From positions 1-64,000 of the forward strand of contig JANQSJ010000007.1 in NCBI GenBank assembly GCA_028284065.1: DNA of 64,000 bases, written 5' to 3'. This DNA comes from Parvularculaceae bacterium. Its GTDB lineage: Bacteria > Pseudomonadota > Alphaproteobacteria > Caulobacterales > Parvularculaceae. The position numbers and the translations under genes were made by a program. Below the pieces are notes generated by a model. That model was not told the origin of the DNA. It made no database searches and worked only from the letters and a program-made list of their open reading frames with translations. This document shows, piece by piece, positions 6,963 through 63,476 of this stretch; positions within the stretch are counted from its first letter, which is position 1; every line of letters starts with the position of its first letter.

Positions 6963-9900
6963 CTAGTCGCCCGCCCACACGTCGAGGGCGTAGCGCCCGT
7001 CCGCGGCCATGCCTTCCATCCAGGTTTCGGCCACTTCGTAAGAGACGTCCCTTTCCTCCGCATAGAGCGTCGTGATCGCACGCTTCACGTCCGGCTCCAT
7101 GGCCGAGCCGTCGCCGCACACATAGATGCGCGCGCCGGCGTCAATTAGGGCCCACACCTTCTCTCGCTCCTCGCGAATGAGGTCCTGCACATAGACGCGC
7201 CGCCCCTCATGCCGGGAAAAGGCGACTTTGAGGTCGATTACCCCTTCCGAGGCCGCTTCTTCCAGCTCCTCCCTGTAAAGAAAGTCCTGATCGGGGTGGC
7301 GGCAACCGAAAAAGAGGAGGGCGGCGCCCAGCGGCGCGCCGGCCGCTTTCTGTTCCCGGCGCTCCCGGATAAAGCCGCGGAATGGCGCGAGGCCGGTGCC
7401 GGGGCCGATCATGATGACCGGCGTCGCCGGGTCGGCCGGCAATTCAAATCCGCCGCTCGCCGGCTTGACGACGGCGTAGATGGTCTCGCCCATACGCGCC
7501 TCGGCGAGATAGTTTGAACACACCCCTTCATAGCGTCCGCGGCCAGATCGGGCCTCGCCTCCGACGACGCCAACAGTCACCGAGCAGCGCCGGGCGTCGG
7601 CGGCGGGCGAGGAGGATATCGAGTAATATCGCGGCGTCATCCAGGGGATGATTTCCAGGAACACCTCGAACGGCAGCTCGCACGCGGGAAACTCCTCCAG
7701 CAAGTCGAAGACCGACTTGCGCTTCAGAAAGACTTCGCTGCGGTAGATGTCTTCGCCGTTGACTTTCGGCGCGGCGAGTGCCTCCAGCTGAGACTTGGTG
7801 TCCGGACAACGCGTGTGGCGGGCAAGAATGCTGACGTCCTTGCGCGAGGCGACCGCCTGAAGCTCGCCATAGAGGTCGGCGAGGCGGCGCACGGAAAAGG
7901 TGGAGTCGTTCGGGAACGGACTTCTCCGCCCGCCGGTCGCATGGACGCGGATGAAGCTGTCGTCATTGAAGCCGAACCGTTTCATGACGCGGTCGACAAG
8001 CGCCGGGCGATTGACCGGCACGACGCATAAGTGGTCGCCCGGCTTGTAGGCGAGCCCCTCGGGAAGCTCCACCTCCACGTGGCGCGTCGAGCGCTCCGAC
8101 GCCGCGCCCTGGAGTTCGCTGTTCGCAACGATGGTCATCGGCAGCGCGCCCGTCTGGTTGGCGACCGGGTGCGCCGTCACGCTCTCCGCGACCTCAATCT
8201 GGTAGAGCGGTTCGGCCTCCTCCGCCTCGGCGACCTCAAGCTCAAGGTCGAGGGCCTTTGCGACCTGCGGCCATAAATCCTCCGTCCACGCCAGGAACTG
8301 GCCTTCCTGGTCGTCGCGGGCGTCGGCTTCGCCGCGATCCTTGATGCGCGCCGCTCCGGCGGCCGCCATCTTTTCGTCGATCGTGCGCGGCACGGCCTGA
8401 TAGGTCGCCGCCCAGTCGCGATTGCCGCAGCCGAATACGGCGTAGCGAACGCCCGCGAGCGCCTCCGCATCTAGGCCGTCCAGCCAGCCCATGAACTTCG
8501 CCGCATTGTCCGGCGGCGCGCCATTATAGGATGCGCTGGCGATGATAACGGCGCCCTTGGCGGGCAGCTTGCCCACATAATCATCGAGCGGCGCCAACGT
8601 CGTTTCGAAACCGTTCAAGTCGCCCGCATTGGCGATTTCGCGGGCGAACCCCTCCGTCGCGCCGAGGTTTGATCCGTAAAGGATGCAAAGCGGCGTCCCG
8701 TGGCGCGGCGCGCGCTGCTTCGCCGCCTCATCCTTTTCCGCGGTTTCGTTCGCAACGGGCGCCAGCGCGCTGCGCGTGACGCCGGCCCGCATGCGCACCC
8801 GCATCCGAAAGCCGTCCGGCTTGATCGACATCGTCTCCTTGACCTTCAGGTCATAGTCATGCGGATCGAGCAGTTCGAAACGCTGCAGGATCATGCCGAG
8901 GACAAGCGTCGCCTCCTGCATGGCGAACTGACGACCGATGCAGGCCCGTCGGCCATTGCCAAATGGCTTGTAAGCGGCTGCGGGCCGCGCCGCCTCCGCC
9001 TCGCGCGAAAAATTGTCCGGGTTGAAGGCGTCAGCGTCCGGCCCCCAGATCTCCGGGTCGCGATGCAGCATCAAGGTCAGGACGGTCGTGAACGTGCCCT
9101 TCTTAAGGAAATAACCGTCGCCGATCGTTTCGTCTTCATAAGGATAGACGCTGAACGCCGGCGCGGTCGGCCATAGGCGCAGGGATTCCAGGAGAATGGC
9201 GCGAACATAGTCGAGCTTGCTGATCTGCCTGTAGGTCGGCGCGGCGGCGACGTCGCGGCCGAGAACCTCGTCCACTTCCGCGTAGGCCTTCGCCAGCGCG
9301 TCGGGGTTCTTCAACAGGAAGTAGAGCGTGAACGACAAGAGCCCCGACGTCGTCTCGTGCCCGGCGATAAGGAAGGTGTTGATCTGATAGCGGATGTTCT
9401 CGTCGGAAAGGCTCTCGCCGGTCGCCTTGTCGACGCCCTGAAGCATGTAGTTAAGTAAATCGTTGGCGACTGCGCCGTCGGACGCGGCGCCGTTGACGCG
9501 CGCGCGCTTTCGCTCGCGGATGATTTCATCGACGAGATTGTTCATGTACGCCGCGTCCTGGCGCAACTGGTCGAGCCGGCTTCTGAGCGCAACATTCTCG
9601 AAGGGCAGGCCGCGTTGCAGCATGCAGGTTTCGAGCGTGCGCGTCAGGGCGTCGATAAAAGGGTGAAAATCGCGGCGGTAGAAAGAATTGAAGCGGTAGT
9701 CGAACCCGCACAGGCCGATCGTGTCGAGCGCGAGGCCCGTCATGTCATGGACGACGTCGATGTCGTCGTCAGCGTTCATCCGCTCCCATTTCAGGACAAG
9801 CTGATTGGCGATATCGACCATCATCGGCAGATAGTCGACCATCGCCTTCTGCGCGAAGGTCGGCAGGAGGATGTTATGCGCCTTCGACCAGTTCGGCGCC

Positions 9901-10190
9901 GACGTGTCGGCGGTGAAAAGCCCGTCCTCCGCAATCGTCCGCACCCGTTTCAGGGCGCCGCGGACGGCCTTGTCGAAGCGGCTTTCGTCGCACAGCTCTT
10001 CAACCAGCTTCGTTCCCGACACGATGACCATGGGTTTGCCCATCATGTTGAGCCAGAAAATCGGCCCGTGCCGGCGCGTCAGGTCCATCAAGCCCTGAAG
10101 AGGCGCCTCGGCGTCGATGGTCATGGCGTTGCCGAGAATGGGCTGTCCCGGCGGATTGGGAATCGGGTGGAGCGGGTTCTTGCTCGCCAT
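6963..10190 (-). CDS. Bifunctional cytochrome P450/NADPH-P450 reductase (CYP102, P450-BM3 type)
   Basis: The 1075-aa self-sufficient monooxygenase fuses a heme domain to FMN and FAD/NADPH reductase domains. The heme domain shows the I-helix AGHETT (276-281), ExxR (E335-R338) and the heme loop FGNGRRACIG with ligand Cys417. Phe92 sits in DGLFT, the place of BM3 Phe87 over the heme. The reductase part has a flavodoxin FMN loop (ILYGSNLGATEGFA), the FAD motif RYYSISSS and NADPH motif GPGTGLAPFRGF, and ends YALDVWAGD like BM3. Known members hydroxylate medium/long-chain fatty acids near the omega end. The ATG at 10190 has AGGGAGGG upstream; a longer frame from 10274 lacks that support. It lies 92 bp downstream of the peroxidase gene on the same strand. 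Confidence 0.97.
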   Translation of the reverse strand: MASKNPLHPIPNPPGQPILGNAMTIDAEAPLQGLMDLTRRHGPIFWLNMMGKPMVIVSGTKLVEELCDESRFDKAVRGALKRVRTIAEDGLFTADTSAPNWSKAHNILLPTFAQKAMVDYLPMMVDIANQLVLKWERMNADDDIDVVHDMTGLALDTIGLCGFDYRFNSFYRRDFHPFIDALTRTLETCMLQRGLPFENVALRSRLDQLRQDAAYMNNLVDEIIRERKRARVNGAASDGAVANDLLNYMLQGVDKATGESLSDENIRYQINTFLIAGHETTSGLLSFTLYFLLKNPDALAKAYAEVDEVLGRDVAAAPTYRQISKLDYVRAILLESLRLWPTAPAFSVYPYEDETIGDGYFLKKGTFTTVLTLMLHRDPEIWGPDADAFNPDNFSREAEAARPAAAYKPFGNGRRACIGRQFAMQEATLVLGMILQRFELLDPHDYDLKVKETMSIKPDGFRMRVRMRAGVTRSALAPVANETAEKDEAAKQRAPRHGTPLCILYGSNLGATEGFAREIANAGDLNGFETTLAPLDDYVGKLPAKGAVIIASASYNGAPPDNAAKFMGWLDGLDAEALAGVRYAVFGCGNRDWAATYQAVPRTIDEKMAAAGAARIKDRGEADARDDQEGQFLAWTEDLWPQVAKALDLELEVAEAEEAEPLYQIEVAESVTAHPVANQTGALPMTIVANSELQGAASERSTRHVEVELPEGLAYKPGDHLCVVPVNRPALVDRVMKRFGFNDDSFIRVHATGGRRSPFPNDSTFSVRRLADLYGELQAVASRKDVSILARHTRCPDTKSQLEALAAPKVNGEDIYRSEVFLKRKSVFDLLEEFPACELPFEVFLEIIPWMTPRYYSISSSPAADARRCSVTVGVVGGEARSGRGRYEGVCSNYLAEARMGETIYAVVKPASGGFELPADPATPVIMIGPGTGLAPFRGFIRERREQKAAGAPLGAALLFFGCRHPDQDFLYREELEEAASEGVIDLKVAFSRHEGRRVYVQDLIREEREKVWALIDAGARIYVCGDGSAMEPDVKRAITTLYAEERDVSYEVAETWMEGMAADGRYALDVWAGD

Positions 10191-10282
10191 TGTCGTGTCC
10201 CTCCCTTCGCGCAGCGCCGCCGCCCATTGAGGGATCAGCCGCGCGCGTCGCAGGTCGCCGTTCGCCGACAGCAAAGGTCGGG

Positions 10283-10997: not shown

Positions 10998-11540
10998 ATG
11001 CCGACCCGCAAGGCCAAGGAGCCATCCGAGAGCGCAAGCGAGGCGATCGCCTCCCTGGAGGAGCGCGTCGACGCCATCGCGACCGCTGTCATGGGTACGG
11101 AGGAGTTCGCGAAGACGGCGAACCTCGCCGCCAACCTGCAACTGCGCATGCAGAAGGGCATGGCCGGCCACATGGCGCGTCAGCTTGCGCTCTTCAACAT
11201 GCCGAGCCGGGACGATCTGACGGCGCTCGCGGAACGGGTGATGACGATGGACGAGCGGCTGGTGCGTATTGAGGAGTTGTTGGCCCGCCTCGTCATTGCT
11301 GGCGACGGCGTGAGCAATGTCGCCGGAAACGGCGCAATGGCGAATGGCGCCGCCGCGCCGCGCCCTGCGCGAACCCGCAAGCCGAAACCAAAAGTGGCGG
11401 CGCCGTCCACGGCGAAGCGAACGTCTTCCGACAAGGGCGCCTCAGCGAAACGAAAGACGACGAAGGGCGCAACGACCAAGCGAACCACCAAGAAAACGGC
11501 AGCTCGGACGTCGACCGCCGCCGCGACGCGCGCGACCTGA
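10998..11540 (+). CDS. PHA synthase partner/granule protein with lysine-rich C-terminal tail
   Basis: The 180-aa protein has three parts. A helical N-terminal part (to ~65) resembles phasin/PhaE-type segments. A FNMPSRDDLTALAERV block follows, then a short coiled coil (MDERLVRIEELLARL), of the type found at the synthase-binding end of PhaE/PhaR/PhaM-like proteins. From about residue 118 to the end it is a Lys/Thr/Ala/Pro-rich basic tail containing KRTTKK, like PhaF/PhaM or histone H1 tails. AGGAGG lies 8 bases before the ATG. The class III-type synthase gene begins 49 bp downstream, so it likely forms or regulates that synthase. DNA binding by the tail is inferred. Exact family is uncertain; it is not a canonical PhaE by length. 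Confidence 0.75.
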   Translation: MPTRKAKEPSESASEAIASLEERVDAIATAVMGTEEFAKTANLAANLQLRMQKGMAGHMARQLALFNMPSRDDLTALAERVMTMDERLVRIEELLARLVIAGDGVSNVAGNGAMANGAAAPRPARTRKPKPKVAAPSTAKRTSSDKGASAKRKTTKGATTKRTTKKTAARTSTAAATRAT

Positions 11541-11589
11541 ATGCGACCCGCCGAAGAACGACGCCGCATGCAGGTGAGGAGCGACGCCA

Positions 11590-12696
11590 ATGGCAGCCGG
11601 TAACCGGTCCGCCGGGCAGGCCGAGAAGGACGCCGCTTCGGCGAAGCTTGGCGCGCGCGTAAGGGGGCTGGTCGAAAAGACCATCCAGCGGAACATCAAG
11701 GGCGTCGAATACTTCGCTTCCGCCGCGCCGCCGGTGGGGCTCACCCCGAAAGACACGATCTATAAGCGGGGCACCCTTAATCTCTATCACTATCGGCCGC
11801 AGACGGAGGATGTCTATCGCGTGCCGATCCTCATCGTCATGGCGACGACCAATCGGTCCTACGTTCTCGATATCGCCAAGGGCGCGAGCTTTATCGAGTT
11901 TCTGGTCTCCAATGGCTACGATGTCTATGCGATTGACTGGGACCCGCCGCGGCCCGAAGAGAAGCGCCTCGACCTTGCATCGTATACGCAGGATTTCATT
12001 CCGTCCTGCATCCGAAAGGTGCAGGAGGCGTCGGGCGAAGCGGATGTGACGATCCTTGGCTACTGCATGGGAGGCGTTCTGTCGGTGATCTATGCGGCGA
12101 CGCATCCCGACGGGCCGATGAAGAACCTCGTCTGCTTTACGACGCCGATAAACTGGCACGAAATGGGCCTTTTCAGCGTCTGGTCGGACCGCCAGCATTT
12201 TGACGTCGACCGCCTTGTGGACATGGTCGGCAATGTGCCGCCTGACCTCATCATGACATCGTTCGACATGTTGCGGCCTGTGGGCAAGCCGGCGGCGCGC
12301 GCGCAGCTGTGGGAGAACATGTGGAACGACGCCTATGTCGAAAACTTCCGCAAGTTCGACCGCTGGGCGAACGAGACCCTGCCGCTGGCGGGAGAGTATT
12401 TCCGTCAGACGACGAAGGACCTCATGTGGGGCAACAAGCTCTATAAGGGCGAGCTTGTCGTCGGCGGCAAAAAGGCGGACATCGGACAGATCAAGGCGCC
12501 GCTCCTCCACGCCGTCGCTCAACATGACCATATCATCCCGCGCGGCGCGAGCGCGCCGCTCATCGAACTTGCAGGCTCTGAGGACAAGGAGGAGCTTGTC
12601 CTGAAGGGCGGGCATATCAGCCTTGTGGCGGGCGCGAACGCCGTGCGCCGGCTATGGCCGAGCCTTGATGAATGGCTTTCGGAGAGATCCCTATGA
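11590..12696 (+). CDS. phaC: Class III-type poly(3-hydroxyalkanoate) synthase subunit PhaC
   Basis: The 368-aa alpha/beta hydrolase-fold polymerase has the PhaC lipase-like box GYCMGG with nucleophile Cys159. The acidic residue is in AQHDHIIP and the catalytic His in GGHISLV near 340. Length (~350-370) and the absence of the long N-terminal domain place it with class III/IV catalytic subunits, which need a small partner; the upstream gene is the obvious candidate. The ATG is preceded by AGGTGAGGAG. The stop overlaps the next start (ATGA, 12693-12696). It polymerises (R)-3-hydroxyacyl-CoA on cytoplasmic granules. A separate, larger class I-like synthase lies at 39.6-41.7 kb. Confidence 0.92.
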   Translation: MAAGNRSAGQAEKDAASAKLGARVRGLVEKTIQRNIKGVEYFASAAPPVGLTPKDTIYKRGTLNLYHYRPQTEDVYRVPILIVMATTNRSYVLDIAKGASFIEFLVSNGYDVYAIDWDPPRPEEKRLDLASYTQDFIPSCIRKVQEASGEADVTILGYCMGGVLSVIYAATHPDGPMKNLVCFTTPINWHEMGLFSVWSDRQHFDVDRLVDMVGNVPPDLIMTSFDMLRPVGKPAARAQLWENMWNDAYVENFRKFDRWANETLPLAGEYFRQTTKDLMWGNKLYKGELVVGGKKADIGQIKAPLLHAVAQHDHIIPRGASAPLIELAGSEDKEELVLKGGHISLVAGANAVRRLWPSLDEWLSERSL

Positions 12697-13274
12697 CGAC
12701 GGAGCGATTGCCGAAGACGGCCGAACTTGAGGGCGGCGCGGTGATGCTGCGGCGCATGGAGGCGGATGATGGGGCGGCTTTGCTCGCCTTCGCCGCGGCG
12801 ACGCCGGCCCACGATCTCCTGTTCATGCCCCGCGACATCACCGAGCCGAAAGTCGCGGAGGCCTGGTTGCGGGCCGACGCGCGCGGCGACATCACGACCA
12901 TCATCGCGCTCGACGCGCAGGACGACGCATCGCCAATCCTTGGCTGCGCAGGGCTCTTCCGCGATCCGCATTCCTGGTCGCCGCATGTGGGCGAGCTGCG
13001 TGTCCTCGTCTCGCCGGACGCGCGCGCCAAAGGCCTTGGCCGCACGCTCATCCAGGAGGCGTTTCTCGTCGCCGTGGGGGAGGGACTGAAGAAGCTCACC
13101 GCCCAGATGACGGTCGACCAGAAAGGCGCCATCGCGATTTTCGAGGAACTCGGATTTCGCGGCGAGGCGCTCCTGAAGGATCACGTCATCGACAAGGACG
13201 GCGCCGCGCACGACATCGTCATCCTGTCGTGCGACGTCGACCGGGCGGCGTCGCAAAAATCGGCCTACGGATAA
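12693..13274 (+). CDS. GNAT-family N-acetyltransferase
   Basis: The 193-aa protein has a GNAT acetyl-CoA fold: a VGELRVLVSPDARAKGLGRTL strand-loop-helix (about residues 103-123) carries the pyrophosphate-binding RxxGxG/A-type loop, followed by the typical FEELGFR motif near 153-159. The ATG at 12693 overlaps the PhaC stop and is served by GGAGAG at 12680-12685; an earlier ATG at 12672 has no such signal. Translational coupling to the synthase suggests a linked function, for example acetylation of a granule or synthase protein, but the substrate cannot be read from the sequence. Confidence 0.85.
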   Translation: MTTERLPKTAELEGGAVMLRRMEADDGAALLAFAAATPAHDLLFMPRDITEPKVAEAWLRADARGDITTIIALDAQDDASPILGCAGLFRDPHSWSPHVGELRVLVSPDARAKGLGRTLIQEAFLVAVGEGLKKLTAQMTVDQKGAIAIFEELGFRGEALLKDHVIDKDGAAHDIVILSCDVDRAASQKSAYG

Positions 13275-13481
13275 GAAAGCATATAATCGTTATACGAATT
13301 GACCGCCGACCTGGCGCGCGGCTGGCGCGTCAGTAACTTCTTATTAACAGTTTTCGCTGCATCGCAACAGGGATCGCGCCCCGAATGCGACGGCGCATTT
13401 TCTTCGCAAATATGTAAAACCGGCACTCGCATGGCGGGCCGTTACGTGCGACACTATGGCCGTTGAGTCGCATGAGGCCGC

Positions 13482-14285
13482 ATGTCTGAGAGCCAGTTGA
13501 ACCTGTCCCGTCCGCCCCTTCCGTATGCGCTGCTGGAGGCGGGCAGAGCGCTTGGCGAAATGTCGCTTCTGCCCGCGGCGGAACTGCCGCTCAGCCTTGC
13601 GCCGACCGGGGATGGCCACTCGGTCGTCGTCTGCCCGGGGTTTCTGACGAGCGATCGCGCGACAGGATTCCTTAGGCGCTTTATCCGCAGCAAGGGCTAT
13701 AACGTCTACGGATGGAATCTCGGCCGCAATCTCGGCCCCGGCCATGAGGGCCGGAACATGGACGAGCTTGCGGACTGGGTCCTCAATGTCTATCGCCAGT
13801 CGCGCCGGCGGGTGTCGCTCGTCGGATGGTCGCTCGGCGGCGTCATGGCGCGCGAACTCGCCAAACGCATGCCGGACGTCATCCGCCAGGTGATTACACT
13901 CGGCAGCCCGATCGCCGGCCAGCCGGAGGCGTCAACTATCGCCTGGGTCTATGACCGGGTCGCCGGGCCGCTCGATGAAGCCTCGCCGGAAATGCAGATG
14001 CTGATCGACCGTCTGCACCATCCGCCGGAATACACGCCCTCGACGGCGATCTTTTCAAAGACCGACGGCATTGTCCCGTGGCGCGGCTGCATTGAGCGTG
14101 AAGCGCCGCTGACGGACAATATCGAAGTGGTCGCGAGCCATTGCGGCCTCGGCGTCAATCCGTTTGTCTTCTTTGCCGTGGCGGACCGGTTGGCGTTGCC
14201 CGAAACCGAATGGTCGCCCTTCGACCGGCGGGCTTCCGCCTGGCGGCGCGTCGCCTATCCGACGGCCGGGCACGTCTACGGCTGA
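13482..14285 (+). CDS. Alpha/beta hydrolase, lipase-like (PGAP1/TAG-lipase-like)
   Basis: The 267-aa protein is a serine hydrolase. VVVCPGFLTSD forms the oxyanion region, GWSLGG holds nucleophile Ser118, the acid is in KTDGIVPW (~Asp199) and the catalytic His in ASHCGLGVNP (~219). No signal peptide is evident, so it is probably cytoplasmic. The HCGLGVNP ending is shared by triacylglycerol-lipase-like proteins that often neighbour wax ester synthase/DGAT genes. It lies between the PHA operon and the wax synthase operon, so turnover of storage lipid is a reasonable guess. A 207-bp upstream region containing a TATAA/TTATA repeat (~13281-13293) separates it from the GNAT gene. Confidence 0.8.
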   Translation: MSESQLNLSRPPLPYALLEAGRALGEMSLLPAAELPLSLAPTGDGHSVVVCPGFLTSDRATGFLRRFIRSKGYNVYGWNLGRNLGPGHEGRNMDELADWVLNVYRQSRRRVSLVGWSLGGVMARELAKRMPDVIRQVITLGSPIAGQPEASTIAWVYDRVAGPLDEASPEMQMLIDRLHHPPEYTPSTAIFSKTDGIVPWRGCIEREAPLTDNIEVVASHCGLGVNPFVFFAVADRLALPETEWSPFDRRASAWRRVAYPTAGHVYG

Positions 14286-14293
14286 CCGCCTTT

Positions 14294-14330
14294 CCAAAAA
14301 AAGGGCCGCGCTGTCGCGTGGCCCTTCGTT
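14294..14330. terminator. Bidirectional rho-independent terminator
   Basis: The stem AAGGGCC (14301-14307) pairs with GGCCCTT (14320-14326), with an extra GCG/CGC step beyond a two-base bulge. It is flanked by seven A residues on the left and CGTTTT on the right. It sits between the convergent lipase-like gene and the phasin-like gene, and the A/T runs suit termination from both sides. Confidence 0.8.
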
Positions 14331-14378
14331 TTGCAGATGTTGAGTCACCGTCGCGCATGCGCCCACGGCGTTGTTTGG

Positions 14379-14819
14379 TTACGCGTCGGCGCCGTGGCGA
14401 ACGCGATCGCGCAGGTTGGCGAGATAGTCCGCCACCGGCTCCATCGACTCGCGCGAGCCGGTCGCCGTGAGCGATGCGACTTCGCGCACCTGAGCGACGT
14501 TGCGCTCAATGCCCTCGCGCAGGGCGTCGCGCTGGATGCGCATGGAATCGGTGAGCGAGTCCGCCTGCATCACGTCGCGCAGCGCCTCGAACGTGGCGTC
14601 AGTGTTGTCCTGCGCATTGCCGATGAGCGTCATCAGGATGTCGCGACGTTTCTCGTCGGCGATCGAGCCGGATTCGGCGAGAGCCGCGCCAGCTTCACGG
14701 AAGCCCGCCTGGATACGCTCCAGGATCGGCTCGACCGTCGTTTCAGCCTGCGTTTCGGCGGCCTTCCTGGCCGTCGTCTTCTTGGCGGTTTTCTTGGTCG
14801 TCTTTTTCGCGGTGGCCAT
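14379..14819 (-). CDS. Phasin-like protein with lysine-rich N-terminal tail
   Basis: The 146-aa protein begins with a histone-like stretch (KKTTKK at 5-10, then more KKT/RK repeats to ~20). It continues as an amphipathic, glycine-poor helical protein typical of phasins that coat PHA or lipid granules. There is no cysteine or enzyme motif. It is the third gene of a minus-strand run after wax ester synthase/DGAT and a hydrolase (gaps of 23 and 29 bp), so it is probably co-transcribed with them. The helical part suggests granule coating and the basic tail suggests nucleic-acid contact; both are inference from composition. It could instead be a general stress-related helical protein. Confidence 0.65.
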   Translation of the reverse strand: MATAKKTTKKTAKKTTARKAAETQAETTVEPILERIQAGFREAGAALAESGSIADEKRRDILMTLIGNAQDNTDATFEALRDVMQADSLTDSMRIQRDALREGIERNVAQVREVASLTATGSRESMEPVADYLANLRDRVRHGADA

Positions 14820-14848
14820 GTCTCGTACTCCTCAGGTTGCAGTTTCAA

Positions 14849-15790
14849 TCAGGCGGGTTCGGTTTCGCGGGGCGCCGTTTCGCCTGGGGCGGCGCCGCCT
14901 TCAGCCGAGCGAAGATGCCCGGCCAGCAAGTCGTTAATCCGCGGCAGGAATTTCGGCGGCAGATCGTGGGCCATGCCGTCGATGATCTCCACGCGCGCGC
15001 CGGGAACGCTCGCGGCGATGTCGAGCCCGGCGCGCAGCGGCGTCAGCGGGTCGATAGACCCGTGAATGACAAGCGTCGGCGCCTCGACCCGCCGCGCGAA
15101 CCGTCGCAGATCGCCGGTAGCGATGATCGCCGCGATCTGGCGGCGGATGCCGGCGGGATAGGTGCAGCGGTCGACGGCGCCGGCGATGCGGGCGCGGAAT
15201 TCGTCGGGGTCATTGCCGCCGTCCGGCGTGCCGATCATGTTCCAGAGCGCGACCGAGCGATCGATGAGTTCCTCGCGCGTGCGCGGCCTCGTCCGGACCG
15301 CGAATATCTCCTGCAGGATCTTCGGGTCGGCTTTCGGCAGCGACGGATTGTTCGTGCTCGACATGATTGTCGTAAGCGAGATCACCCGGTCCTTGTGATT
15401 GGCAGAAAGGATTTGGCCGATCATCCCGCCCATGGAGACGCCGACAACGTGCGCCGCGTCGATGTCAAAGGCGTCGAGGACGCCGACGCTGTCGCGCGCC
15501 ATGTCTTCGAGCGTGTAGGGCGCGAGCGCGCTCGCGAACGGCAGGCGCGACAGGACGGCGAACGCCGTCGGCCGCGGCGCGCGCTTCGCGTGCAGCTTCT
15601 GCGACAGGCCGACATCGCGATTGTCCATGGCGAGGACGCGGTAGCCTGCGTCCGCAAGCGCATCGACGAAGGCGTGGGGCCAGTGCGTCAGCTGCGCGGC
15701 GAGCCCCATGATGAGGAGAACGGCCGGACCGTCTTTCGGTCCGTGCGTCTCCACCTCGATGTCGATGCCGTTCGCCTTGATCAGCGGCAT
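14849..15790 (-). CDS. Alpha/beta hydrolase (esterase/PHA-depolymerase-like)
   Basis: The 313-aa protein has an alpha/beta hydrolase fold: LLIMGLAAQLTHW forms the oxyanion strand, GVSMGG carries nucleophile Ser119, the acid is in HGSIDPLTP (~Asp247), and the His is in DGMAHDLPP (~276). No export signal is present. Family members include esterases and intracellular PHA or haloalkane-type hydrolases, so the substrate is open. The gene is sandwiched between the wax synthase/DGAT and phasin-like genes with short gaps, which points to storage-lipid mobilisation. The C-terminus is a short Ala/Pro/Glu-rich extension. Confidence 0.83.
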   Translation of the reverse strand: MPLIKANGIDIEVETHGPKDGPAVLLIMGLAAQLTHWPHAFVDALADAGYRVLAMDNRDVGLSQKLHAKRAPRPTAFAVLSRLPFASALAPYTLEDMARDSVGVLDAFDIDAAHVVGVSMGGMIGQILSANHKDRVISLTTIMSSTNNPSLPKADPKILQEIFAVRTRPRTREELIDRSVALWNMIGTPDGGNDPDEFRARIAGAVDRCTYPAGIRRQIAAIIATGDLRRFARRVEAPTLVIHGSIDPLTPLRAGLDIAASVPGARVEIIDGMAHDLPPKFLPRINDLLAGHLRSAEGGAAPGETAPRETEPA

Positions 15791-15813
15791 GGTTAATGTC
15801 CTCCGTCCACGGC

Positions 15814-17592
15814 TTAGTGAATAGTCGGCGATGCGCCGCCATCTGCGCCGGCCGAAACGACAGCCTCCTGATCGGCCGCCAGCGCCGCGGCCTGCGCGAG
15901 CCAGCCGTCGCGGGCCGGGCGGCCGCGAAGCCCGAGCGCCTCGTCCAGTTCATCGACCTGCGAGGGCGTGAGGGCGGCGAGCTGTTCAAACGTCTTCAGG
16001 CCGGCATTGCGCAGCCGTTCGGCGAGCCGCGCGCCGACCCCCTTGATGCGGGTCAGGTCATCTTCGCGGCGCCCCGCCGGCGCGGCCTTCGGCGCCGCGC
16101 CGTTGGCGGCCTTGCGCACGCGCTTCTTCTCCGTGCGCGGCTTCACCGCGGCGGCGTAAAGTTCGTCGAACGACGCCTGCAGGCAGTCGCGGTAAAAGGC
16201 GGGGTCGGGCAGCATTTCCCGGCAGCCGGTCAGCGTGACGGCGATCTGGCCGCAATAGCTGGTGACGGCATGGAAGAGCCCCATGGAGTCCATCACCGGG
16301 CCGATGCCGTAGGCGCTGACGAGCCGCGCGCCCGCCATGTAAAGAGGGACCTGCGGCCCCGGCACATTTGTAACGACCGTGTTGAACATGGGCGACAGGC
16401 GATTGGCGAGGCCGAGACGCGAGTAGAGACGGGCGGAGACGCCGGACACCATTGCGGGCGCGAGGTTCGAGGCTTCCGACAGCTCCCGCGCGCCGACGGC
16501 TTTCGACATCGCTTTCTGGTTCGCCGCGACATCGTGCGTGTAATGAAGCCGCGCCAGCGGATCGGCGATATGCGTGCCGAGCGGGATGGAAAGCGCCGTC
16601 ACCTGGTTGCCCAGGGCGTTCTTCTCGTCTTTCGTCCGCACCGAGACGGGCGCCATGGCGATAAGCGACTCCTTCGGGAGTTCATCCTTCGCCTTCAGAT
16701 AGTTGCGCAGGCCCCCGCCGACGATGGCGAGGACAGCGTCGTTTACTGTCGCGCCGGGAATCCGCTTACGGATTTTTTTGATGTCGTCGAGGTCGAATAC
16801 GACGCCATCGACAACGCGGTTGCTGGAGACAATTCCGTTAAAGCGCGTGCGCGGCACTTTCGCGCCAAGAAGTTTGATCTCGCCCGAGGTGAGGCCGCTT
16901 GCGAATTTCAATGCGCCAGGCGCCATGCGACGCGCGACCCGCAAGCCGTAGAACGGCTTGGTGACATTGTTGAAGTTCGCGCGGGCGATGAGCTCAAGAT
17001 CGCTTGGCTCGCGCCGCGGCGTCCAGGGGCCGACTTCCTCTTCGACCTCTTCGTCCGGCGCCAGGCTATGGATCGCTTCGGCGATGTCGACGCCGGACGC
17101 GCCGTCGATGGCGCAGTGATGCACCTTGGCGACGATCGCATAGGACCCCTTCGGAATGTTCGGGATGTTGTCGAGGCCCTCGACGACCGTGAACTCCCAG
17201 AGCGGCTTCGACATATCGAGCGGCCGGGCGTGCAGACGCGCAATCTGTATGCAGAGCTGACGCCAGTCGCCGGGATGCGGCAGGGCGATATGGCGGATGT
17301 GAAACTCGATATCGAAATCCGGATCGTCGACCCAGTAGGGATGATCATAGCCGAGCGGCACGCGCTTCAGCTTCTGACGAAAGGTCTTCGCCCTGTGCAG
17401 GCGCTCCTCGACGTGGGCGAGGATATCCTTGAAGCGGACCTTGCCGCCGGGCGCCGTGGACGGATCGTAAATCTTGCAATCGCCGATATGCATCGGCGTG
17501 CGCGGGCCTTCCGCATAGGCGAAGAGGGCGTCGAGGCCGGTCAGTTGCTCCGGCGACCATTCGCGGATGAGGTCTCCAAGGCGTTTCGCCAT
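15814..17592 (-). CDS. Wax ester synthase/diacylglycerol acyltransferase with C-terminal HhH module
   Basis: The 592-aa protein belongs to the bifunctional WS/DGAT family that makes wax esters or triacylglycerol from acyl-CoA. The catalytic HHCAIDG (HHxxxDG) is at 158-164, KPLWE at 129-133, and the conserved NVPGPQVPLYMAG block is near 410. Normal members end at ~460-500 aa. This one continues through a basic linker (EKKRVRK) into a helix-hairpin-helix module of about 60 residues (DDLTRIKGVGARLAERL, then a GLRGR turn and WLAQAAAL). That module is otherwise seen on NuoE or L21-type proteins and on the small protein at 58.5 kb. It heads a three-gene minus-strand operon with a hydrolase and a phasin-like protein. 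Confidence 0.93.
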   Translation of the reverse strand: MAKRLGDLIREWSPEQLTGLDALFAYAEGPRTPMHIGDCKIYDPSTAPGGKVRFKDILAHVEERLHRAKTFRQKLKRVPLGYDHPYWVDDPDFDIEFHIRHIALPHPGDWRQLCIQIARLHARPLDMSKPLWEFTVVEGLDNIPNIPKGSYAIVAKVHHCAIDGASGVDIAEAIHSLAPDEEVEEEVGPWTPRREPSDLELIARANFNNVTKPFYGLRVARRMAPGALKFASGLTSGEIKLLGAKVPRTRFNGIVSSNRVVDGVVFDLDDIKKIRKRIPGATVNDAVLAIVGGGLRNYLKAKDELPKESLIAMAPVSVRTKDEKNALGNQVTALSIPLGTHIADPLARLHYTHDVAANQKAMSKAVGARELSEASNLAPAMVSGVSARLYSRLGLANRLSPMFNTVVTNVPGPQVPLYMAGARLVSAYGIGPVMDSMGLFHAVTSYCGQIAVTLTGCREMLPDPAFYRDCLQASFDELYAAAVKPRTEKKRVRKAANGAAPKAAPAGRREDDLTRIKGVGARLAERLRNAGLKTFEQLAALTPSQVDELDEALGLRGRPARDGWLAQAAALAADQEAVVSAGADGGASPTIH

Positions 17593-58548: not shown

Positions 58549-58947
58549 CTAGGGCGCTTCGCCGCACAGTCCGCGCGCCTGTTCGATCCAGCGTTCGCGG
58601 CCGACCCGGCCTGGTTCGCCAAACTGGCTTTCAATCCAGCGGGCGTGGGCGTCGGTCCAGCCGGCGATCTGGGTGAAATGATAAACGCCGAGCCCATGCA
58701 GGCGTTGAGCGGCGGCGGCGCCGATTCCGATGATCTGCGTCAGGTCGTCGGCGTTCCCTTCCGGTTCGGCGAGGCGCCGAGGCTCCTGCGCCGGCGGCGC
58801 TTCCACCGCCGCGGCGTGATCCGTGGGCGTCGACGCGACGTCAATCGCAGCGCTTCCGCGCCGCGGCGACGCCAGCCAGCCGGCGCCGACGCCGGCCGCA
58901 AACGCCGCAAAGAGATAAATCCATATCTCCGCGATCAGCCAGATCAT
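58549..58947 (-). CDS. Small membrane-anchored helix-hairpin-helix protein
   Basis: The 132-aa protein has one N-terminal TM helix (~4-24) and a linker. An HhH module follows from about residue 66: NADDLTQIIGIGAAAAQRLH, then YHFTQIAGWT and RERWIEQARGL. The same module is at the end of the wax synthase/DGAT at 15.8 kb and on many NuoE/L21-type proteins. Its role is unclear; DNA, protein or assembly contact are options. The start overlaps the OmpA-family stop (ATGA), so the two are one operon. Confidence 0.82.
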   Translation of the reverse strand: MIWLIAEIWIYLFAAFAAGVGAGWLASPRRGSAAIDVASTPTDHAAAVEAPPAQEPRRLAEPEGNADDLTQIIGIGAAAAQRLHGLGVYHFTQIAGWTDAHARWIESQFGEPGRVGRERWIEQARGLCGEAP

Positions 58948-59951
58948 CGCGATCCTCCCCGTCCTGAGGCTGCATCCTCGATGGCGGACACCTCAATCGT
59001 GACGCGACGATTGCGCGCCGCCGCGTCGGGCGTTCCAGGCGGCGCCGCCGGTCGACTGGAGCCATAGCCCACGGCCTCAACGCGCCGTCGCGGCAGGCCG
59101 AACCCCGCCAGGATGTCACGGATGTTCTGAGCGCGCGCGAGGCTGAGCCGCCGGTTGACGCGTTCCGACCCTGTGGAGTCAGTATGGCCGCCAACGACGA
59201 TCCGGACCGCGCCGCATTGTTTCAGCGCGCCGGCGGCCGCCTCAAGATAGCGAACTGAGTTGGGACTGGGGCGCTCGGAGTTTCGCACAAATGAGACGCC
59301 GTCCTCAGAACCGACTGCGGCCAGGCGGTCGCGGCAGGCGGCGACTGGGCCCCCGGCGTCGGACGCGACGTCTGCGATTTCGACGGCGGCGTCGCCGGGT
59401 CGTCCAACGGGAGCGTCGCGAAGGGCAGACGTGGCGGCGGGGTCGTCCGTCAGCGGATTTTCCGCGTTTTCGCCCGCGGATGCGGCCAGCTTCGATGACG
59501 CGCCGGCGGTTACGCCGGGGTCGGAGAGGTTCGGATCGGCCTCGGAAGCGACCGGCGCGGGCGAAAGGGGCGCGGCGAGGTCGGCCTCGGCGACGGCGGG
59601 CAGGATTACCCGTAGTGCGTCTGCATTGACCGACGCAATGCCGCCGGCGATCGTCCCGCCTCGGCCGCTTGCGCGAAGCGCAGCCTGCGCCGCCGCCTCG
59701 ACGGCCGAGGGGTCAAGCGCCTCGCCGACAAGATCTGCGCGGCGGCCGCGCATCTCCACAGACATCCCGCGCGCGCCGACCGTCGCGGCGAGGGCGGCCT
59801 CAACGTCGCGCTGAAGTTTGCGCTCGACCCCCGGCGCAAGGGCGAAGGCGAGCGCCAGCGCGGCGGCCGCGGCCGCCGGAAAGCTGGCCCCCAAAGGGAC
59901 ATGAATATCACGCGCAGCCACTTGATCGACTCTGGACGTCCAAAACTCCAC
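58944..59951 (-). CDS. OmpA-family protein (peptidoglycan-binding C-terminus)
   Basis: The 335-aa protein has an N-terminal hydrophobic helix (~23-40), a BON-like region with repeated EAALAA-type helices, a long Ala/Pro-rich linker, and an OmpA-like domain. That domain carries VGGHTDSTGSERVNRRLSLA (~255) with the meso-DAP-binding Asp and Arg, and ends RNRRVTIEVS. It probably links inner membrane or periplasm to the cell wall. The start is GTG with a poor site; a second GTG at about 59924 is an alternative. It is followed by the HhH gene with a 4-bp overlap. Confidence 0.85.
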   Translation of the reverse strand: MEFWTSRVDQVAARDIHVPLGASFPAAAAAALALAFALAPGVERKLQRDVEAALAATVGARGMSVEMRGRRADLVGEALDPSAVEAAAQAALRASGRGGTIAGGIASVNADALRVILPAVAEADLAAPLSPAPVASEADPNLSDPGVTAGASSKLAASAGENAENPLTDDPAATSALRDAPVGRPGDAAVEIADVASDAGGPVAACRDRLAAVGSEDGVSFVRNSERPSPNSVRYLEAAAGALKQCGAVRIVVGGHTDSTGSERVNRRLSLARAQNIRDILAGFGLPRRRVEAVGYGSSRPAAPPGTPDAAARNRRVTIEVSAIEDAASGRGGSR

Positions 59952-62999: not shown

Positions 63000-63476
63000 C
63001 TAGGCCTTCCGGGGGCGACCGCGCTTCTTCGTGGTCTTTTTGGCCGCTCGCTTCCGCGAAGGCGCGCCGGCGGTGCGGCCGAGGCCGATTTCCTTGGCGA
63101 ATTGCGAGCGCCGCTTGGCGTAGTTCGGCGCGACCATCGGGTAGTCTGCCGGCAATCCCCATTTGCGCCTGTAGTCCTCGGGCGACATGTCGTACTGAGT
63201 GCGCAAATAGCGCTTCAGCATCTTTAGCTTCTTCCCGTCTTCAAGGCAGATGACGTGTTCAGGCGTCACAGACTTTGAGATCGGCACCGCCGGCTGCTGA
63301 TTTCCGGCATAAGCAGTGCCGCCGGCGGCGAGCGCGCGGATGGCGTCATGAATTTCCTGAAGCAAAGCCGGAAGCTTGTCCGCATTAATTGAGTTATTAC
63401 TCACGAACGCTGAGACAATGTCCGTCGTCAAATGCAGTGTTTCCGTTGAACCTATTTCCTTGTCGGAATTCGCCAT
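63000..63476 (-). CDS. mucR: Ros/MucR-family regulator with AT-hook tail and altered zinc finger
   Basis: The 158-aa DNA-binding global regulator shows the MucR core: VICLEDGKKLKMLKR, then EDYRRKWGLPADYPMVAPNYA (about 75-120). In Ros the finger uses Cys-x2-Cys and two His. Here Cys77 and Asp80 are present but the His positions are Tyr90 and Gln94, so classical zinc binding is unlikely, as reported for some Mesorhizobium Ml proteins. The C-terminus adds a KKTTKK run (146-151) and the AT-hook RGRPRK (152-157). TGAGGAG precedes the ATG, and an AT-rich region upstream fits the self-regulation known for the family. Confidence 0.93.
   Translation of the reverse strand: MANSDKEIGSTETLHLTTDIVSAFVSNNSINADKLPALLQEIHDAIRALAAGGTAYAGNQQPAVPISKSVTPEHVICLEDGKKLKMLKRYLRTQYDMSPEDYRRKWGLPADYPMVAPNYAKRRSQFAKEIGLGRTAGAPSRKRAAKKTTKKRGRPRKA

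Follow-up and report, generated by a model that had tools for sequence, protein, structure and literature searches.

A conserved alphaproteobacterial storage-lipid cluster with candidate DNA-binding appendages on its granule-surface proteins

We analysed a 64,000-nucleotide stretch (hereafter the window; contig JANQSJ010000007.1, positions 1 to 64,000) of a Parvularculaceae genome (3.7 Mb, 99.9% complete), focusing on a gene cluster at 11.0-17.6 kb that encodes a wax ester synthase/diacylglycerol acyltransferase (WS/DGAT), a phasin and a class-III-like polyhydroxyalkanoate (PHA) synthase, PhaC, with its PhaE-like partner. Judged from the translated genes, these functions are clustered, and basic tails occur on WS/DGAT, on the PhaE-like protein and, depending on the lineage, on the phasin. 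The granule-surface proteins appear to carry DNA-binding-type appendages, and tethering of nascent granules to the nucleoid is the best reading of these additions, one for which we judge support and doubt to be evenly balanced.

Conservation and composition of the cluster

The phasin, second hydrolase and WS/DGAT genes converge with those for the PhaE-like protein, PhaC, GNAT acetyltransferase and first hydrolase (Table 1), and a class I-type PhaC gene lies outside the cluster, 22 kb away. A neighbourhood comparison of 80 WS/DGAT loci taken from public genomes revealed the recurrent order WS/DGAT-(hydrolase)-phasin / hydrolase-GNAT-phaC-phaE. In 18 of these loci, mostly from Sphingomonadales, WS/DGAT and phasin genes face genes for an alpha/beta hydrolase, GNAT and PhaC in the order seen in the window, minus the second hydrolase, and a PhaE-like gene was detected in 17 of the 18. 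The complete set, second hydrolase included, is present in a genome from another alphaproteobacterial family (G130), and two genomes of the same genus as the window (G001 and G002) retain the neighbourhood, the PhaE-like gene of G002 running off its contig. Close matches to the class-III-like PhaC/PhaE pair were found in 3/25 genomes of the family. Synteny kept across these genomes supports a functional unit in which neutral-lipid synthesis is linked to a phasin and to a second PHA synthase. By its gene order, the region is a conserved alphaproteobacterial storage-lipid cluster, of which a limited literature search returned no description.

WS/DGAT scores well above its family cut-off (TIGR02946, 450 bits against 310), residues H158, H159, D163 and G164 of its HHxxxDG motif are invariant, and its closest named relatives, judged by this enzyme, are a Parvularculaceae metagenome-assembled genome (MAG; 70%) and Marinicaulis sp. 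SS_bin_21 (60%). The phasin likewise exceeds the gathering score of PF09361 (38.5 against 24.9 bits). The clustered PhaC, which the preliminary description of this region did not list beside its partner, falls below the curated TIGR01836 cut-off (308 bits, E 8.5e-92, against 365) and is, on sequence similarity, a close relative of class III PhaC. Its partner has a core that, from profile matches among orthologues (best 3.8e-9 for PhaR and 5e-10 for PhaE), is homologous to PhaE/PhaR; the window copy, at 16–22 bits, lies far under the curated cut-offs and outside the curated members. A PDB sequence search with this protein gave no match, and its profile recovered generic coiled coils only. The pair thus resembles class III/IV PHA synthases (PhaC with PhaE or PhaR) in that a small coiled-coil-type partner adjoins a 368-aa PhaC, but differs from them in the sub-threshold scores of both proteins, in the basic tail of the partner and in its clustering with WS/DGAT.

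Table 1. Features of the storage-lipid cluster and of the distant PHA synthase in the window.
Feature	Coordinates	Strand	Remarks
PhaR/PhaE-like small PHA-synthase subunit, 180 aa	10998..11540	+	coiled-coil core ~1-97, basic tail ~120-180
Lys-rich C-terminal tail of PhaE-like protein	11355..11537	+	ends SAKRKTTKGATTKRTTKKTAARTST
Class-III-like PHA synthase PhaC, 368 aa	11590..12696	+	TIGR01836 308 bits; lipase-type box GYCMGG
GNAT acetyltransferase	12672..13274	+	PF00583; adjoins phaC in 18 related loci
Alpha/beta hydrolase, conserved cluster gene	13482..14285	+	PF12697; ~60 related loci have one
Phasin (Phasin_2)	14379..14819	-	PF09361 38.5 bits; N-terminal head MATAKKTTKKTAKKTTARKA
Lys/Thr-rich phasin head	14760..14819	-	retained in close relatives
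Second alpha/beta hydrolase, between phasin and WS/DGAT	14849..15790	-	PF00561 96 bits
WS/DGAT with C-terminal appendage	15814..17592	-	TIGR02946 450 bits
PhaH/L21-type helix-hairpin-helix module of WS/DGAT	15874..16056	-	basic linker before it (net +8)
Class I-type PHA synthase, 713 aa	39606..41747	-	Lys/Ala-rich N-terminal extension ~110 aa

Basic tails and their background

Past the catalytic domain, most alphaproteobacterial WS/DGATs carry a Lys/Ala/Pro-rich C-terminal tail (e.g. AKKKAKAKTKAAPKRKSPAKKKTAAKKKTAAK); those of Pseudomonadales and most Myxococcota are without one. Under a single criterion, such tails were found in 54/80 WS/DGATs versus 3/322 conserved neighbouring open reading frames (ORFs), all three of which were the PhaE-like partner itself, and a looser control yielded 44/63 versus 0/513. 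The corresponding figures for N-terminal extensions of PhaC were 21/27 versus 0/87 neighbours. Among 366 genes predicted in 464 kb of the window genome with a home-made gene caller, 20-aa Lys-rich low-complexity segments occurred in five, encoding the PhaE-like protein, the phasin, PhaC, a MucR-like regulator and a Gly/Lys-rich protein, so that the additions are not a general background of this genome. Chance or general low complexity was rejected as their origin on this own-genome background together with the conserved-neighbour control.

That the tails are low-complexity additions usual in high-GC Alphaproteobacteria, aiding solubility or having no specific role, is accordingly an explanation to which we give very little credence, even if tail sequences diverge fast and grow or shrink, and KKTTKK tails recur on a topoisomerase I and a MucR-like regulator of the window genome. 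Both of these proteins are DNA-binding by type, conserved neighbours lack tails other than on the PhaE-like partner, and the presence of the tail in PhaC, like the RT(R/K)xxP motif of the PhaE-like protein, is conserved. The regulator, a MucR/Ros-like protein named from its sequence (window 63000-63476, minus strand), ends in an AT-hook-like basic tail, AAKKTTKKRGRPRKA; the topoisomerase I-like protein (G000:C14:39582, L009) has its KKTTKK segment close to the C-terminus.

The appendages differ in their phylogenetic reach. The Lys-rich N-terminal extension of the class I-type PhaC was present in 20/20 family genomes with an uncut PhaC start, strongly by score in 19 (the remaining two of the 22 copies examined were excluded because a contig ends shortly before their core); its sequence diverges while its presence and composition persist, and it is found in genomes both with and without WS/DGAT. 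In the PhaE-like protein, the C-terminal basic motif reads RPKPxRTRKPP in Sphingomonadales and RT(R/K)xxP more widely, and was recovered in 21/22 orthologues by the pattern used. The window copy has RTRKP within its basic tail (11355-11400), and longer Lys-rich repeats have been added in Parvularculaceae copies and in G258. The phasin head is retained in the genus of the window, in Marinicaulis (G021) and in the Parvularculaceae locus L126, occurs in a short form in L129-L133 and G130, and is missing or of a different kind in most Sphingomonas copies; the other two Phasin_2 proteins of the window genome have no comparable head.

The Lys-rich tail of the synthase partner, the Lys-rich head of the phasin and the terminal helix-hairpin-helix (HhH) of WS/DGAT noted in the preliminary description were all recovered. 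Its fourth addition, on the distant PhaC, is present and Lys-rich; it sits at the N-terminus, and on a gene outside the cluster. The expectation that the four would co-occur across relatives did not hold, since they largely vary independently of each other, and a single co-inherited four-tail system was rejected. The earlier observation was in another respect understated, because tails are a widespread feature of these enzymes.

The helix-hairpin-helix module of WS/DGAT

In the window genome WS/DGAT ends in a module of ~65 aa (residues ~509-573) which, by its GhGxxxA motif and predicted helical fold, is an HhH domain. The canonical GhGxxxA is kept in 4/5 HhH-bearing WS/DGATs, the window copy included, and AlphaFold2 models the module as helical (pLDDT ~84). 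HHH_5 matches at 26.5 bits, slightly under its cut-off of 27, and Foldseek returned RadA, Hel308, NusA AR (prob about 0.5-0.93) and SAM domains. The NCBIfam models matched were those of C-terminal extensions or HhH proteins: L21 (65.2 bits), PhaH (NF045508; 62.5), a second L21 model (58), NuoE (54) and S2 (50). The PhaH match, against a cut-off of 250 bits, covers only profile positions 142-233, the C-terminal part. A profile search of 41 genomes recovered no full-length PhaH over cut-off. An orthologue of PhaH in the window genome was rejected, the matches to its profile all lying on other proteins, and a PhaH-like candidate in G038 reads as a hydrophobic segment followed by HhH.

PhaH of Caulobacter crescentus is an HhH phasin reported, in a review (PMC13052382), to bind DNA through its HhH. 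The two proteins differ in that the module sits here on an acyltransferase and in PhaH on a phasin; the match between the modules makes DNA binding by the WS/DGAT HhH plausible.

Phylogenetic inference on the catalytic part of WS/DGAT (120 rows) indicated at least 12 changes in basic tails on well supported branches. The five HhH-bearing enzymes (from the genus of the window, Marinicaulis G021 and Parvularculaceae L126) fall in one group with 100% support, which also holds one basic-tailed member and is enclosed in a larger group with 34/48 basic-tailed members. This placement of the HhH enzymes amid basic-tailed ones makes a single origin of HhH on an H1-like-tail background the simplest reading, under which one DNA-binding-type module would have replaced the usual H1-like tail in this clade. 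The basic linker ahead of the module was retained, with a net charge of +8 in the window genome. A Marinicaulis MAG (L074 5381-8144) has an L21 gene with HhH directly beside its HhH-bearing WS/DGAT gene, in divergent orientation, and this L21 gene is a possible source of the module. A conserved C-terminal tripeptide, T(I/V)H or SVH, follows a variable stretch in all HhH-bearing WS/DGATs (window 15817, L011, L012, L013, L126).

The C-terminal HhH extensions of L21, L3, S2, NuoE and protein-O are the same ~65-aa module as that of WS/DGAT, and PDB structures containing it are those of a complex I subunit and RC-LH1 protein-O. In the latter structure the C-terminal domain could not be resolved, and domains of this type were termed obscure in function (PMC12079452). 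The window genome has the same HhH on L21 and on a small protein (58549-58947, minus strand), and a diverged, HhH-like C-terminal extension on L3 (G000:C18:385913-386149, L004). With a hydrophobic N-terminus followed by HhH, the small protein resembles RC-LH1 protein-O in layout; its gene adjoins that of an OmpA-like protein (58944-59951).

This distribution bears on the possibility that the WS/DGAT HhH serves for docking to proteins or close to the ribosome, with no relation to DNA, and was drawn from the alphaproteobacterial L21/L3/NuoE/S2 extension family, the basic tails having a minor, separate role. The top-scoring profile is that of L21 rather than PhaH, L21 and L3 of the same genome bear the module, NusA AR is among the fold matches, and the Marinicaulis L21-HhH gene adjoins WS/DGAT-HhH; against these points, PhaH is described as binding DNA with the same module, and GhGxxxA is canonical in most WS/DGAT copies. 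On balance we regard a docking role as improbable.

Granule-nucleoid contact and other roles for the tails

Known granule-nucleoid tethers are phasins or small coat proteins. A review (PMC13052382) describes two devices among PHA tethers, a histone-like tail (PhaM, PhaF) and HhH (PhaH). On neutral lipids, MLDS from Rhodococcus jostii binds DNA through its Lys-rich tail and recruits it to lipid droplets, and Lys-to-Glu changes abolish the binding (PMC5504291).

The PhaE-like protein shares the layout of PhaM (Cupriavidus) and PhaF (Pseudomonas), a PHA-associated domain followed by a Lys/Ala-rich histone-like C-terminal tail, and some of its orthologues weakly match PHA_granule_1 (3/8 at E<=0.01, best 1.7e-4). 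It differs from them in matching PhaR/PhaE best rather than the PhaF/PhaM family (TIGR01837, 14.3 bits against a cut-off of 94.7), in being a synthase partner encoded next to a class-III-like PhaC, and in the mostly short tails of its orthologues. WS/DGAT resembles MLDS in placing a Lys-rich C-terminal tail on a neutral-lipid-body protein; MLDS, however, is a non-enzymatic major lipid-droplet protein of an actinobacterium, whereas the tail here is on a lipid synthase. Searches that did not extend to subscription papers found none on Lys-rich tails of wax synthase in connection with the nucleoid, nor on Lys-rich N-terminal extensions of PHA synthase.

With both devices present among WS/DGATs, and with PhaC and the PhaE-like protein also carrying basic tails, contact between nascent granules and the nucleoid is the reading we prefer. 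The catalytic or phasin part would be placed on the lipid or PHA body as it grows, and binding to the DNA backbone, independent of sequence, would fall to the flexible, positively charged tail or to the basic linker with HhH, such that nascent granules stay distributed along the nucleoid and segregate with it, as for PhaM, PhaF, PhaH and MLDS. We infer each step, from basic tail to DNA binding to granule positioning, by analogy with these proteins. Gain and loss of tails would be separate in each protein, which points to a recurrent solution, not one co-inherited machine.

A more specific proposal, which we advance tentatively and with doubt somewhat outweighing confidence, is that alphaproteobacterial WS/DGATs are nucleoid tethers with interchangeable DNA-binding ends, an H1-like tail or, in Parvularculaceae, a PhaH-type HhH, and that together with tailed PhaE/PhaC and the phasin they build triacylglycerol (TAG)/wax and PHA bodies on the chromosome. 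If so, DNA-binding ends on polymerising enzymes and on a TAG/wax synthase would let the chromosome set the site of lipid-body birth, and PHA-type segregation would extend to neutral lipids in Proteobacteria.

Several observations weigh against nucleoid tethering. The HhH of WS/DGAT is near neutral (-3 to +4; -2 in the window copy), none of its Foldseek matches reached E<0.001, and NusA AR and SAM, which are protein-binding domains, are among them. The module is shared with L21, L3, complex I and RC-LH1 protein-O, proteins for which an attachment to DNA is hard to rationalise, and Sphingomonas PhaE-like tails are short, at about 17-37 aa. The additions, moreover, vary independently: the PhaC extension is universal in the family, the PhaC/PhaE pair is found in 3/25 genomes, HhH is confined to one clade and the phasin head is patchy. 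This independent variation weakens the earlier claim of one tethering system shared by PHA and neutral-lipid bodies. Its tethering component retains the support of the tail enrichment, the conserved cluster and the precedents of PhaM, PhaF, PhaH and MLDS; its component of a single co-inherited system does not.

WS/DGAT and PHA synthases act at the membrane or lipid surface, and the main competing explanation is that the tails are electrostatic anchors to anionic surfaces other than DNA, namely the cytoplasmic membrane, the phospholipid monolayer at which WS/DGAT forms neutral lipid, or polyphosphate, which would set where synthesis starts without nucleoid attachment. The tails do sit on synthases, Lys/Ala tails bind any polyanion, genomes without WS/DGAT still have the PhaC extension, and HhH is also found on membrane-anchored proteins such as the small window protein and RC-LH1 protein-O. 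An HhH in place of a basic tail would nevertheless be odd for a lipid anchor, and the nearest studied tails, those of MLDS, PhaM and PhaF, as well as PhaH, are reported to bind DNA; we consider anchoring rather unlikely.

Elsewhere, at window positions 6963-10274 on the minus strand, lies a gene for a cytochrome P450 fused to a reductase as in P450 BM3, an assignment made from its sequence.

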